From a bacterium (GTDB taxonomy: Bacteria > Bacillota > Negativicutes > Acidaminococcales > Acidaminococcaceae), in contig SFRS01000053.1 of assembly GCA_004562175.1 (NCBI GenBank), positions 1-6,030 on the forward strand: a DNA stretch of 6,030 bases, written 5' to 3'. Position 1 is the first letter of the stretch; each line of letters begins with the position of its first letter. The position numbers and the translations under genes are program-made. Shown in pieces: positions 2,527-6,030 of the stretch. The notes beneath the pieces are model-generated. The model worked only from the letters and a program-made list of their open reading frames with translations, was not told where the DNA came from and made no database searches.

Positions 2527-3945
2527 ATGAAAAAGTCCCTGAATCTAAACTATACCCGAAAAGTACATATTACCGTTGTGGTTATTCTCATGCTGTTGGT
2601 GCTCTCCGGCTTCGTGTCCTATCAGATTGGCGTCATGGAGGAGGAGGCCGCTTGGGGCTCCCTGAAGCGTTCTGCCAATCGTGTGGACGAGGAACTAAGT
2701 CGCCGAGTGGAGATTGACCGAGAGGTGCTGTTGACCTTGGCGGGGATTATCAGCAAGCAGGAGCAGCTGGATGGTCCAGTGGTGCGGGAAATAGTCAATG
2801 AGTTTCAGGCCAATAGTCTGATGGGGCATATTGGCTTGCTTTTGCCGGGGGATAGGCTTATTTGGGCCAACAGAGAAATTATGGATGTACGGGGTAAGCT
2901 GTCCTTTGAGCAGGAGGCGGCTCATGGTGCCCATATTACCAATAGGGTTAAGGAAATTTCTAATAGAAATAACTATATTTTGCGCAATTTTGTGCCCGTT
3001 ATTAAGGAGGGCAGGACGGTTGCTATGCTTTATGGCATGGTTAAGCTGGATACACTGCCGGCCTTTATGAATCAAAATATTTATCAAGGTAAGGCCCTGT
3101 ACTTTATTATTGATGGTAATAATGGGGATTTTATACTCAATACTAACCGTAAACAGCTGGGCAATATGTGGGATGTGCCCGAAAGAGCTGTTAAAAGTGG
3201 TGATAGCAATTTAGTAATACGGGAAAAGCTGCGCTTAGGTCAGGAGGGGCAGAGTATAATTAAGTCTGCCATTAGCGGTGAGTATGGCTGCTTCTATTAT
3301 AAGCCTGCTTCCATTAACCAGTGGCGGGTGGGTATTTTTGTCCCCGAGGATGCGGCCTTGGCCAGAACCAAAAAAACTAGCAGCCTGTTGCTGATTTTTT
3401 TGGTTTGCCAGTTTTTGCTGCTTTCCAGCTATTTTATTTGGCTGGAGCGCACATCTCGCAAGGAGCTGGCCCAGCAGCAGCGCTTGGCCGAGCGTGATTT
3501 GCTGACGGGATGCTTAAATCGCAATACCTACGAAAATAAGCTGAAGGAATTGGCTTTGACTAAAGCTGATCTGAGCTGCATTTATATTGATGTGAACGGT
3601 TTGCACGAGCTCAATAATACTCAGGGCCATACTGCCGGTGACAAAATGCTGCAAACAGTGGCTTCTCTTACACGCACCCAGTTTGGCGACAGGCATGTTT
3701 ATCGTATCGGTGGCGATGAATTTGTTGTTTTAGTTGAGGACATGGAGGAGGTACAGGTGACCACTGCATTGAAGACATTGGTTAACCACATCCATACTGC
3801 CGGATACTTTGTTTCTGTGGGGCAAAGCCATAGCCGTGGTGACCACTCCATTGATGAGCTGATTAAAAATGCAGAAACGCTCATGTACGAGGATAAAAGA
3901 CGCTTTTACAGCCAGCAGGGTCGGGACAGGCGCAAACGCAGCTAA
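2527..3945 (+). CDS. Membrane-anchored diguanylate cyclase with Cache-like sensor domain
   Basis: This enzyme probably makes cyclic di-GMP from two GTP in response to an external signal. It has 472 residues. Membrane segment 1 spans about 13-35. An extracytoplasmic region follows at about 36-284, and its second half (YFIIDGNNGDFILNTN, about 192-207) looks like a double-Cache ligand-binding domain. Membrane segment 2 is at about 285-305, followed by a short polar linker and a GGDEF domain (about 319-463). Catalytic features are present: RDLLTG at 323-328, metal-binding Asp355, guanine-contacting Asn363 and Asp372, the GGDEF motif at 395-399, and Lys457 near the end. The allosteric RxxD site expected nine residues before GGDEF reads FGDR (386-389), so product inhibition there is unlikely. 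There is no EAL or HD-GYP domain. The gene stands alone between terminator and promoter signals, and its ligand cannot be inferred. Confidence 0.9.
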   Translation: MKKSLNLNYTRKVHITVVVILMLLVLSGFVSYQIGVMEEEAAWGSLKRSANRVDEELSRRVEIDREVLLTLAGIISKQEQLDGPVVREIVNEFQANSLMGHIGLLLPGDRLIWANREIMDVRGKLSFEQEAAHGAHITNRVKEISNRNNYILRNFVPVIKEGRTVAMLYGMVKLDTLPAFMNQNIYQGKALYFIIDGNNGDFILNTNRKQLGNMWDVPERAVKSGDSNLVIREKLRLGQEGQSIIKSAISGEYGCFYYKPASINQWRVGIFVPEDAALARTKKTSSLLLIFLVCQFLLLSSYFIWLERTSRKELAQQQRLAERDLLTGCLNRNTYENKLKELALTKADLSCIYIDVNGLHELNNTQGHTAGDKMLQTVASLTRTQFGDRHVYRIGGDEFVVLVEDMEEVQVTTALKTLVNHIHTAGYFVSVGQSHSRGDHSIDELIKNAETLMYEDKRRFYSQQGRDRRKRS

Positions 3946-3949
3946 AACT

Positions 3950-3970
3950 AGGAGGTATATTCCTTTTATT
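3950..3970 (+). terminator. Weak terminator-like hairpin after the diguanylate cyclase gene
   Basis: AGGAG (3950-3954) can pair with TTCCT (3960-3964), with one G-U pair, around a 5-nt loop, followed by TTTATTT. The stem is short, so termination would be inefficient. The same bases include AGGAGGT, a strong ribosome-binding-site match, but no ATG, GTG or TTG lies at usable distance downstream. Confidence 0.25.
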
Positions 3971-3982
3971 TCATTAAAGCCC

Positions 3983-4011
3983 TTGCTGAAACAGTATAAA
4001 AATGCTACAAT
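3983..4011 (+). promoter_or_regulatory. Promoter of the leader RNA and polyamine genes
   Basis: TTGCTG (3983-3988), a 17-nt spacer and TACAAT (4006-4011), with TG at 4003-4004 forming an extended -10. The predicted start is about 4018. The first transcribed bases would then form a hairpin, CATGAATGC (4019-4027) against GCTTTCATG (4033-4041), with one T-T mismatch. This is the only convincing promoter between the diguanylate cyclase gene and the decarboxylase gene. Confidence 0.7.
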
Positions 4012-4017
4012 AAAATT

Positions 4018-4331
4018 ACATGAATGCAGCTTGCTTTCATGCAAATATTAGTCCACTATTGTAAAAGATAGTTAAGCCCATACGGACAGGCGGGACTGCT
4101 GCCGGAGTGGCCTCGGGCCACATTATTGATTGAGCCTGCGCTCAAATTTTATAAGGTGATTGCTAGCAATCAAAATCAGTATCACTTGTGAAACGGTCAA
4201 TAAGAGTAGTGAAGGTATTTGCTTACAAACTCTGAAAGTAAGATGCGCCCTAAGAATCGTAGTCTATCAAAAAACGTGTAGGGAATTTGTCAAAGACAGG
4301 TGATGTTTAGCGCACCTGTCTTTATTTATTT
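4018..4331 (+). promoter_or_regulatory. Structured leader RNA upstream of speA, candidate riboswitch or attenuator
   Basis: This approximately 310-nt transcript start has no supported coding region and ends in a terminator 17 nt before speA. Visible helices are: ACTATT (4055-4060) with GATAGT (4067-4072), or alternatively GATAG (4067-4071) with distant CTATC (4264-4268); CGG-A-CAG (4083-4089) with CTGCCG (4099-4104); GTGGCC (4107-4112) with GGCCAC (4116-4121); TTGAGC (4130-4135) with GCTCAA (4140-4145); the palindrome GATTGCTAGCAATC (4158-4171); and CTTAC (4222-4226) with GTAAG (4238-4242). ATCACTT (4181-4187) can pair with AGGTGAT at 4154-4160 or at 4298-4304, the latter in the terminator. 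I see no T-box, lysine, SAM, cobalamin or c-di-GMP riboswitch consensus. A ligand from polyamine or arginine metabolism is an inference from the downstream genes. An independent small RNA with partial readthrough is the main alternative. Confidence 0.65.
4292..4331 (+). terminator. Intrinsic terminator controlling entry into speA
   Basis: An 11-bp perfect stem, AAAGACAGGTG (4292-4302) / CACCTGTCTTT (4313-4323), with a 10-nt loop and a T-rich tail TTTATTTATTT (4321-4331). The ribosome binding site of speA begins only 4 nt later and no promoter intervenes. Transcripts from 3983-4011 must therefore read through it to express speA and speE, which makes it an attenuator rather than a simple gene end. 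Confidence 0.85.
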
Positions 4332-4348
4332 GTTGGGGAGAACGGATT

Positions 4349-5797
4349 ATGGAGAAACTTTCACAACTATCAGCGCCTATTTACGAGGCTTTGGAGGCCT
4401 TTCGTAAAAAGCGCGTGGTTCCCTTTGATGTGCCCGGGCACAAGCGTGGTCGTGGCAATCCGGAGCTGCGGGAGCTTCTTGGAGAAAAATGTGTAAATTT
4501 GGACGTGAACTCCATGAAGCCCTTGGATAATCTGTGCCATCCTGTTTCAGTAATTAGGGATGCGGAACAGCTGGCGGCAGAGGCTTTTGGGGCTGCCCAT
4601 GCCTTTTTTATGGTGGGAGGTACCACCTCCTCCGTGCAAAGCATGGTGCTTTCCTCTACGAAGGCCGGGGACAAGATTATTTTGCCTCGCAACGTGCATA
4701 AAAGTGTCATCAACGCGCTGGTTTTAAACGGCGCGATACCCGTATATATCAATCCTGAGGTGGACAGCAAGCTGGGGATTTCCTTGGGGATGGAGCTCAG
4801 CGAGGTGGAGAAGGCCATTAATGCCAATCCCGATGCCAAGGCAGTGTTGGTGAATAATCCTACCTATTACGGCATTTGCTCTGATTTGCGCTCCATTGTG
4901 AAGCTAGCTCATGAGCATAATATGCTGTGTCTGGTGGACGAGGCTCATGGTACTCATTTTTACTTTGGTCCCAATATGCCGGTGAATGCCATGGCAGCTG
5001 GTGCAGACATGGCCTCTGTTTCCATGCACAAGTCCGGGGGCAGCTTGACCCAAAGCTCTCTGCTTTTGACAGGCCCCAATGTAAACTGGGAATATGTGAG
5101 TCAGATTATCAATCTGACCCAAACCACCAGCGCTTCCTATTTGCTGCTTTCTAGTTTGGATATTTCCCGCCGCAACCTGTACATGCGCGGCGAAAGCTCC
5201 TTTGCCAAGGTGGCCGAGATGGCGGAATACGCGCGCGAGGAAATCAACTCCATCGGCGGTTATTATGCCTATGGTCAGGAGCTAAAGAACGGCAGCAGTA
5301 TTTTTGATTTTGATGTGACGAAGCTGTCCGTTTATACACGTGATATTGGTCTCGCAGGCATCGAGGTGTATGATTTACTGCGTGATGAATATGATATCCA
5401 AATCGAGTTCGGTGACATTGCCAATATCCTTGCCTATGTGTCCATTGGCGACAGGATTCAGGATATTGAGCGCTTGGTGGGAGCTTTGGCAGATATTAAG
5501 CGTTTGTATTCCCGTGACCCCTCCAAGATGCTGAATACGGAATATATTGCGCCTCAGGTGGTGGTTTCACCTCAGGAAGCCTTCTATGCCAAGGATGAGT
5601 CCCTGCCTATTAGAGAGACGGCGGGCAGGATTTGCTCTGAGTTCGTGATGTGCTACCCTCCGGGTATTCCTATTTTGGCCCCCGGCGAGGTCATTACTAA
5701 GGAGATTATTGAGTATATAATCTACGCTAAGGAAAAGGGTTGCTCCATGCAGGGCCCTGAGGACCCCGAAGTTAATAATATAAATGTTTTGGTGTAA
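4349..5797 (+). CDS. speA: Orn/Lys/Arg decarboxylase, probable arginine decarboxylase (SpeA type)
   Basis: This is a PLP-dependent fold-type-I basic amino acid decarboxylase. Its 482 residues resemble Bacillus subtilis SpeA (about 490 aa) throughout. Visible features are the N-terminal PGHKRG (29-34), NVHKS (115-119), the PLP-ring region LVDEAHG (195-201) and the Schiff-base lysine Lys228 in SMHKSGGSLTQSS. The C-terminal domain contains FVMCYPPGIPILAPGE (432-447) and ends with MQGPED (467-472). It lacks the N-terminal response-regulator-like wing of the large inducible E. coli enzymes. Arginine to agmatine is the favoured reaction because speE follows after 12 nt, as part of a putrescine and spermidine route. 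Lysine (cadaverine) or ornithine cannot be excluded from sequence, so the symbol is provisional. The start is supported by GGGGAG (4335-4340) with 8-nt spacing. Expression probably depends on readthrough of the upstream attenuator. Confidence 0.88.
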   Translation: MEKLSQLSAPIYEALEAFRKKRVVPFDVPGHKRGRGNPELRELLGEKCVNLDVNSMKPLDNLCHPVSVIRDAEQLAAEAFGAAHAFFMVGGTTSSVQSMVLSSTKAGDKIILPRNVHKSVINALVLNGAIPVYINPEVDSKLGISLGMELSEVEKAINANPDAKAVLVNNPTYYGICSDLRSIVKLAHEHNMLCLVDEAHGTHFYFGPNMPVNAMAAGADMASVSMHKSGGSLTQSSLLLTGPNVNWEYVSQIINLTQTTSASYLLLSSLDISRRNLYMRGESSFAKVAEMAEYAREEINSIGGYYAYGQELKNGSSIFDFDVTKLSVYTRDIGLAGIEVYDLLRDEYDIQIEFGDIANILAYVSIGDRIQDIERLVGALADIKRLYSRDPSKMLNTEYIAPQVVVSPQEAFYAKDESLPIRETAGRICSEFVMCYPPGIPILAPGEVITKEIIEYIIYAKEKGCSMQGPEDPEVNNINVLV

Positions 5798-5809: not shown

Positions 5810-6030
5810 ATGGAGCTTTGGTTTTCCGATTACCACACGGATGATGTGAAGCTGGATATAAAAATTGAAAAGCAATTATTTGGAGAGGACACAGATTTTC
5901 AACGGATTGACGTGTTCGACTCCAAGGAATTTGGTCGTTTTATTGCCTGCGATGGCACCATCGTCTTCTCTCAAAAGGACGAATTTATTTACGATGAGAT
6001 GATTGTGCACGTGCCCATGGCCGTGCATCC
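5810..6030 (+). CDS. speE: Spermidine synthase, N-terminal part (cut by window end)
   Basis: This polyamine aminopropyltransferase transfers an aminopropyl group from decarboxylated SAM to putrescine, giving spermidine and methylthioadenosine. Only the first 73 complete codons are visible. They correspond to the N-terminal beta-sheet domain, beginning MELWFSD, with FQ (30-31), EFGRFIACDG (40-49) and KDEFIYDEMIVHVP (56-69), matching the start of B. subtilis and E. coli SpeE. The Rossmann-type catalytic domain lies beyond the window. The ATG at 5810 is chosen because homology begins there. The out-of-frame ATG at 5805 gives no family similarity, and AAGG (5796-5799) gives a modest ribosome binding site with 10-nt spacing. 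The gene is 12 nt from the speA stop codon, so co-transcription is expected. An agmatinase gene (speB) further downstream would be usual, but this cannot be seen. Confidence 0.92.
   Translation, partial: MELWFSDYHTDDVKLDIKIEKQLFGEDTDFQRIDVFDSKEFGRFIACDGTIVFSQKDEFIYDEMIVHVPMAVH

Follow-up and report, generated by a model that had tools for sequence, protein, structure and literature searches.

A structured leader RNA (4018-4331), located between the gene of a GGDEF protein (2527-3945) and a decarboxylase gene (4349-5797) of an Acidaminococcaceae bacterium, ranks as a strong candidate for a second polyamine riboswitch class. It probably acts as an OFF switch at the level of transcription, with spermidine or a closely related polyamine as its predicted ligand. 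The covarying, conserved structure within the 5' leader and its link to polyamine genes are well supported by sequence comparison, and OFF control by termination is likely; that a ligand binds directly, which one it is and that the RNA switches are what we infer from gene content and from two mutually exclusive pairings. All coordinates refer to the window, i.e., the whole 6,030-nt stretch analysed (contig SFRS01000053.1). If the RNA is a riboswitch, a pneumococcal "sRNA" acquires a function and its 54-nt Rfam entry is to be corrected.

Structure and conservation of the leader

The features of the leader and its locus are listed in Table 1. The sequence-only reading, which placed a structured leader without a supported ORF ahead of polyamine genes, is borne out by covariation and by a gene neighbourhood of polyamine genes only; no small ORF preceded by a Shine-Dalgarno (SD) sequence was found in the leader of the window. 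The same reading located a terminator 17 nt before the decarboxylase start codon, and the terminator does end at 4331, with the ATG at 4349. Its "good" promoter was a generous description: the promoter-like sequence is present but agrees by eye with the consensus in 8 of 12 letters, and a scan with a threshold of 9/12 did not list it. Transcription is expected to start near 4018.

Table 1. Features of the leader RNA and of its locus in the window.
Feature	Position	Strand	Evidence
Promoter-like TTGCTG (3983-3988), 17-nt spacer, TACAAT (4006-4011)	3983..4011	+	read from sequence
P1 5' strand, partner 4214-4222	4041..4049	+	duplex energy, own vs swapped
P2 module: P2 4050-4054/4093-4097, P2a hairpin 4055-4060/4067-4072, P2b 4076-4078/4089-4091, conserved loop CAUACGGACA	4050..4097	+	covariation
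RF02440 SpF59_sRNA (ldcC RNA) match, full model 1-54	4050..4105	+	57.4 bits vs gathering 37.2
P3 hairpin 4107-4112/4116-4121	4107..4121	+	double changes in 6/6 pairs; 77.9% of cells paired
P4 5' strand UUAUUGA, partner 4197-4203	4123..4129	+	95.9% of cells paired
P5 hairpin 4130-4135/4140-4145	4130..4145	+	88.9% of cells paired; double changes in 4/5 pairs
P6 5' strand UUUUAUAAG, partner 4185-4193	4147..4155	+	94.6% of cells paired
P7 hairpin 4158-4162/4167-4171	4158..4171	+	double changes in 4/4 pairs; 83.6% of cells paired
P6 3' strand 4185-4193, overlapped by putative antiterminator strand AUCACUUGU 4181-4189	4181..4193	+	pair count (P6); duplex energy (antiterminator)
P4 3' strand UCAAUAA	4197..4203	+	named-structure pair count
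P1 3' strand	4214..4222	+	duplex energy, own vs swapped
Intrinsic terminator: stem 4292-4302/4313-4323, T-rich tract to 4331	4292..4331	+	hairpin -16.5 kcal/mol
speA-type Orn/Lys/Arg decarboxylase gene	4349..5797	+	PF01276, 231.7 bits
speE (spermidine synthase) start, cut by window end	5811..6030	+	TIGR00417, 72.1 bits over 73 residues

The core comprises eight helices (P2, P2a, P2b, P3, P4, P5, P6, and P7) and the closing helix P1. Conservation and covariation among relatives, on which the sequence-only reading had staked its case, are both found. The MAFFT alignment A1 contains 63 sequences with less than 80% identity, chosen from 162 usable of 177 distinct cores; the 15 cores left out were too short (7) or had no detectable P4 3' strand (5) or P2 5' strand (3). 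Standard pairs fill 89.8% of 2780 cells (46 pairs), compared to 82.1% after shuffling and at most 47.0% in slid versions, over which the structure is favoured as it was drawn on the Paenibacillus member (L007). Double changes are present in 28 of the 46 pairs (16.7 shuffled) and in 236 cells (67.2 shuffled), and 0/500 shuffles, which ignore kinship, match any of the three statistics (paired cells, double-change pairs, and double-change cells).

The helices differ in their support. RNAalifold on A1 recovers P2, P2a, and P2b only (13 pairs, nine with double changes), and P3-P7 are supported by the count of pairs in the named structure, a measure biased in favour of a structure taken from the aligned members themselves, and by the window fold. 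Weak points in A1 are the outermost P2 pair (25/63 paired) and P3. Helices P4 and P6 have double changes in just 2/7 and 2/9 pairs, respectively, because both are nearly invariant. Since the MAFFT alignment was wrong at the 5' end of P1 (approximately 53/86 paired at the first positions), this helix was judged by its own duplexes against swapped ones, which gave -18.3 and -14.0 kcal/mol, respectively (n = 63; 0/2000 permutations as low). In the window taken alone, the free fold of the leader chooses a different partner for P2 and is 3.5 kcal/mol better (-90.6 vs -87.1 kcal/mol with the consensus P2). Long, almost invariant stretches, CAUACGGACA and UGCCG, are unpaired. A further hairpin between P7 and P6 (P8) is not claimed, having standard pairs in 33/83, 19/57, 43/68, and 59/78 sequences at its four positions.

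Among the flanking genes, the window decarboxylase reaches no NCBIfam model cut-off, and is approximately 95% identical to SpeA of a Phascolarctobacterium locus (L057), which points to a relative of Phascolarctobacterium as the probable source of the window. The speE score is below the full-length TIGR00417 cut-off because only the first 73 codons are within the window. The GGDEF protein encoded between ilvB and the leader has a long N-terminal part matched by no Pfam or NCBIfam model. At the other end of the window, a hairpin and its adjoining T run (76-111) directly precede ilvN (acetolactate synthase small subunit, 126-659) and resemble an attenuator for the ilvN-ilvB operon, the 5' part of which would lie outside the window; the Rfam scan of the window matched nothing at this hairpin.

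Terminator, antiterminator and proposed switching

The terminator at 4292-4331 was not listed by the first terminator scan, which allowed loops of 3-8 nt, as its loop has 10; a script allowing loops of 3-12 detects it. With loops of up to 12, this script finds a hairpin and T tract 150-420 nt past the core in 82 of 118 loci and none in the other 36.

The 5' arm of the terminator is complementary to the 3' strand of P6, which makes P6 and the antiterminator mutually exclusive. Complementarity was assessed in 67 loci, i.e., 73 non-redundant ones (<85% identity) among those with a terminator found by the script, minus six without recognisable P6 3' strand. The best duplex of the terminator 5' arm with the core covers the P6 3' strand in 54/67 (shuffled mean 9.2, maximum 15, 50 runs), and 13 arms are not aimed at P6. 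Arms pair with their own leaders at -13.8 kcal/mol and with swapped leaders at -10.4 kcal/mol (0/2000 permutations). In the window, the antiterminator formed by AUCACUUGU and ACAGGUGAU (4296-4304) has -12.5 kcal/mol, and the A-U/G-U-rich P6 alone -5.0 kcal/mol. The first G of CUUG is opposite U in P6 in 57/62 sequences and opposite C in the antiterminator in 27/34, as would suit a strand with two alternative partners. For the second conserved wobble G, the antiterminator partner is C in just 7/34. Conditional bypass of the terminator, which the sequence-only reading had deduced from its position, is thus well supported.

In the proposed mechanism, when ligand is absent, the weak P6 would yield and its 3' strand (4181-4189) would pair with 4296-4304 as antiterminator, allowing RNA polymerase to read through into speA-speE. 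When spermidine or a close polyamine is bound, the folded core would retain the P6 3' strand, the terminator hairpin (4292-4323) would form, and synthesis would stop. As P6 can form only in place of the antiterminator, stabilisation of the core would cause termination, and the switch would be OFF. The equilibrium fold of the whole window leader has -90.6 kcal/mol in the terminator state and -74.1 kcal/mol in the antiterminator state, ligand absent. Across 34 loci, the antiterminator state is a median 6.2 kcal/mol (0.0 to 18.5) above the free fold, and within 5 kcal/mol in 13. At equilibrium, the terminator state is the more stable one even when no ligand is present, and switching would therefore need to be kinetic.

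The direction of control is compatible with data from pneumococcus. Deletion of potABCD raised SP_0916 (speA) 16.9-fold and SP_0918 (speE) 14.4-fold by qRT-PCR, and the rise was not visible by RNA-seq (PMC8540371). Lowered polyamines in this importer mutant are stated in the same report with reference to its authors' earlier metabolomics (PMC8540371). The increase fits control through this leader and is not a proof of it.

Distribution, downstream genes and variant members

The cmscan of the window gave RF02440 as the sole family at gathering level, and all 18 relatives scanned matched it. The paired changes GACC/GGUC to GUCC/GGAC in P2 and GGC/GCC to GCC/GGC in P2b distinguish the window from the RF02440 consensus. 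The leader had been called unrecognised, and a significant Rfam match had been named as evidence against a new class; 54 nt are recognised by RF02440, yet the entry is typed as sRNA, gives no regulatory function and covers a small part of the leader.

Relatives were searched first by a pattern scan of genome contigs with 18 fixed core letters, which found at least 117 loci, including, among the matches listed, Paenibacillus, Bacillus, Neobacillus, Kurthia, many Clostridia, Acidaminococcus, Phascolarctobacterium, and one Synergistaceae genome. Genomes were then sampled with RF02440 in groups labelled after named loci, and it matched 17/200 in the class of the Phascolarctobacterium genome (L057), 7/100 in the phylum of the Synergistaceae genome (L069), 24/299 in the class of the Paenibacillus genome (L007), and 35/291 (34 above cut-off) in the class of an "uncultured Merdimonas", a Clostridia (L009). 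Every RF02440 match listed from the sampled genomes is in single copy, and among 14 control genomes Lactococcus lactis alone matched. A covariance model of the 163-position core built here (R1) matched 39/291 and 27/299 genomes in the L009 and L007 classes, i.e., five and three more than RF02440, minus one sub-threshold RF02440 match (G853).

Downstream genes were assigned starting from 201 loci, which reduce to 177 distinct cores; 171, including the window, were assessable, and six had 48-576 nt of downstream sequence. A polyamine synthesis or import gene is downstream in 171/171. Reading along the same strand, the first gene to be recognised is of speA type in 64 loci, SpeD in 43, carboxyspermidine dehydrogenase in 39, and PotA in 25. 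Here "recognised" stands for a tblastn match (E<=1e-5) to any of four reference proteins, and a small unknown gene may therefore lie in between. Representative SpeD and PotA score 418.8 bits with TIGR03331 (cut-off 255.8) and 567.4 bits with NF043075 (cut-off 550), respectively; the dehydrogenase is named by similarity, as its representative scores 421.8 bits with NF043000 (cut-off 800). R1 loci examined outside the A1 training set, eight of them missed by RF02440, precede speA (6), speD (4), or potA (1) on the same strand in 11/11 cases. The structure and the gene link thus argue well for a widespread cis-regulatory leader RNA of polyamine genes, conserved from Bacilli to Synergistaceae.

Several members depart from the common architecture. 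Three members at L255, L256, and L257 (near 1501-1685), in Bacilli-class genomes of 1.8-2.1 Mb, have a shortened P2b loop (UACGGACA) and almost no P2a hairpin; RF02440 overlooked them and the full-length model detected them. Five others (L181, L188, L192, L194, and L177) have CACACGG or CAGACGG in place of the near-invariant P2b loop CAUACGGACA, and four of the five also have CGCCG instead of UGCCG. These linked changes possibly indicate a tertiary contact or an altered ligand.

Some members retain one half of the core. Three members, L258 (620-744), L259 (3562-3729, reverse strand), and L261 (1322-1478) keep P4-P7 without a recognisable CAUACGGACA module (P2/P2b); they are missed by RF02440, yet precede speD or speA. 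Conversely, L006, L013, and L092, with L098 similar, keep P2-P3 and have lost the conserved P4-P7 strands. The script detects a terminator in L013, L092, and L098, and one can be seen in L006 as well; in these members the terminator seems to use another partner (AACAUC...). Both L006 and L092 precede speA, and the sequence downstream of L013 is too short to judge. On the strength of such one-module members, a tentative extension of the riboswitch reading may be considered, in which the widespread second polyamine class, filed as sRNA, would consist of two separable modules, CAUACGGACA (P2/P2b) and UUAUUGA / AUUUUAUAAGU / ACUUGUGAAA (P4-P7), usually joined on one terminator and each perhaps sensing polyamine alone.

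Ligand, alternative readings and known systems

The genes downstream represent two spermidine routes, a decarboxylase step, and an importer, and their common OFF signal would be the end product, spermidine (or putrescine). An unlikely alternative is that the RNA is a real cis-regulator read by a protein, such as a polyamine-responsive RNA-binding repressor or antiterminator, and not by the polyamine itself. The cis position and the mutually exclusive helices suit protein control equally, whereas the near-invariant unpaired CAUACGGACA and UGCCG and the conservation from Bacilli to Synergistaceae suit an aptamer at least equally, and argue weakly for one.

It is distinctly unlikely that the riboswitch responds to another metabolite, i.e., SAM or its products, arginine, agmatine, lysine, or cadaverine. 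SAM is the substrate of SpeD, and the speA-type enzyme may take arginine or lysine, but judging from gene content none of these compounds would link speD with both the carboxyspermidine route and the importer, and no SAM-I match was found in 3950-4400 at E up to 5. From the ligands listed by the sequence-only reading, only polyamines would fit all four gene types; SAM-derived compounds appear at odds with the carboxyspermidine and importer loci, and lysine and cadaverine with speD.

A trans-acting small RNA, as the labels of Rfam and of the pneumococcal sRNA surveys have it, is very improbable. RF02440 is entered as "Streptococcus sRNA SpF59 (ldcC RNA)", a 54-nt model of type "Gene; sRNA" with no regulatory function given, and its alias implies that the gene link was already noticed by someone. 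In pneumococcus, the RF02440 RNA is F59, SN20, and srn235 at once. F59 was catalogued as 82 nt (869510-869591) between SP0915 and SP0916 (PMC3395615), and SN20 as 869478-869791, with a stated length of 318 nt and both promoter and Rho-independent terminator marked Y; its authors considered an FMN switch on account of a shared motif (PMC2887815). Against a primary role in trans are the same-strand position directly upstream of a polyamine gene in every assessable locus and the complementarity of the terminator to its own core; a terminated leader would resemble an sRNA too, and may have a trans role in addition. A translated leader peptide, like the uORF elements upstream of ornithine decarboxylase genes such as the odc1 uORF motif (PMC8632094), is scarcely credible, as SD-preceded ORFs of 6-70 codons are found in 11/63 leaders, with none in the window, compared to 25.5 expected from shuffles, part of which fell back on single-base shuffling.

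The spermidine riboswitch reading can be set against RNAs already described. The Rfam entry RF02440 is a truncated version of a wider cis-regulatory RNA, typed as sRNA: its model has 54 nt and the leader core approximately 180 nt (4041-4222), it overlooks members in eight genomes that the full-length model detects, and it presents as a free-standing gene what lies upstream of polyamine genes. No other significant Rfam family was found in 3950-4400 at E up to 5. The L20_leader (RF00558) aligned at 4234-4333 via the terminator hairpin with 20.2 bits (E 0.14), far below its gathering score of 58.7, and its genes are unrelated to those here; OppA_thermometer (E 3.8) was on the opposite strand and far under gathering. 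The odc1 uORF motif is likewise a candidate control element upstream of a polyamine decarboxylase gene, and is uORF-based (PMC8632094), whereas the leaders described here have no uORF enrichment.

In the open-access literature searched, among the matches listed, RF02440 or this leader is nowhere described as a riboswitch. The validated spermidine riboswitch is a variant of the SAM-I aptamer, known from an alignment of 13 representatives (PMC10853860). Selective dedicated RNA aptamers for polyamines are disputed, and the authors of the validated class expect further classes (PMC10853860). Having a named core, terminator, and antiterminator, the candidate makes the question of polyamine sensing by RNA directly testable. 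Both RNAs precede polyamine genes (ldcC, speE, and speB in the SAM-I variants), and the validated class is a transcriptional OFF switch with terminator and antiterminator, a logic that the present leader would share; spermidine as ligand was demonstrated there (PMC10853860) and is predicted here. The leader is not the published SAM-I variant, as it has no SAM-I match at E up to 5. It differs in its conserved core and in having speD, carboxyspermidine dehydrogenase, and potA downstream, and the candidate is much commoner than the validated class, standing ahead of polyamine import genes as well as those of two spermidine routes.
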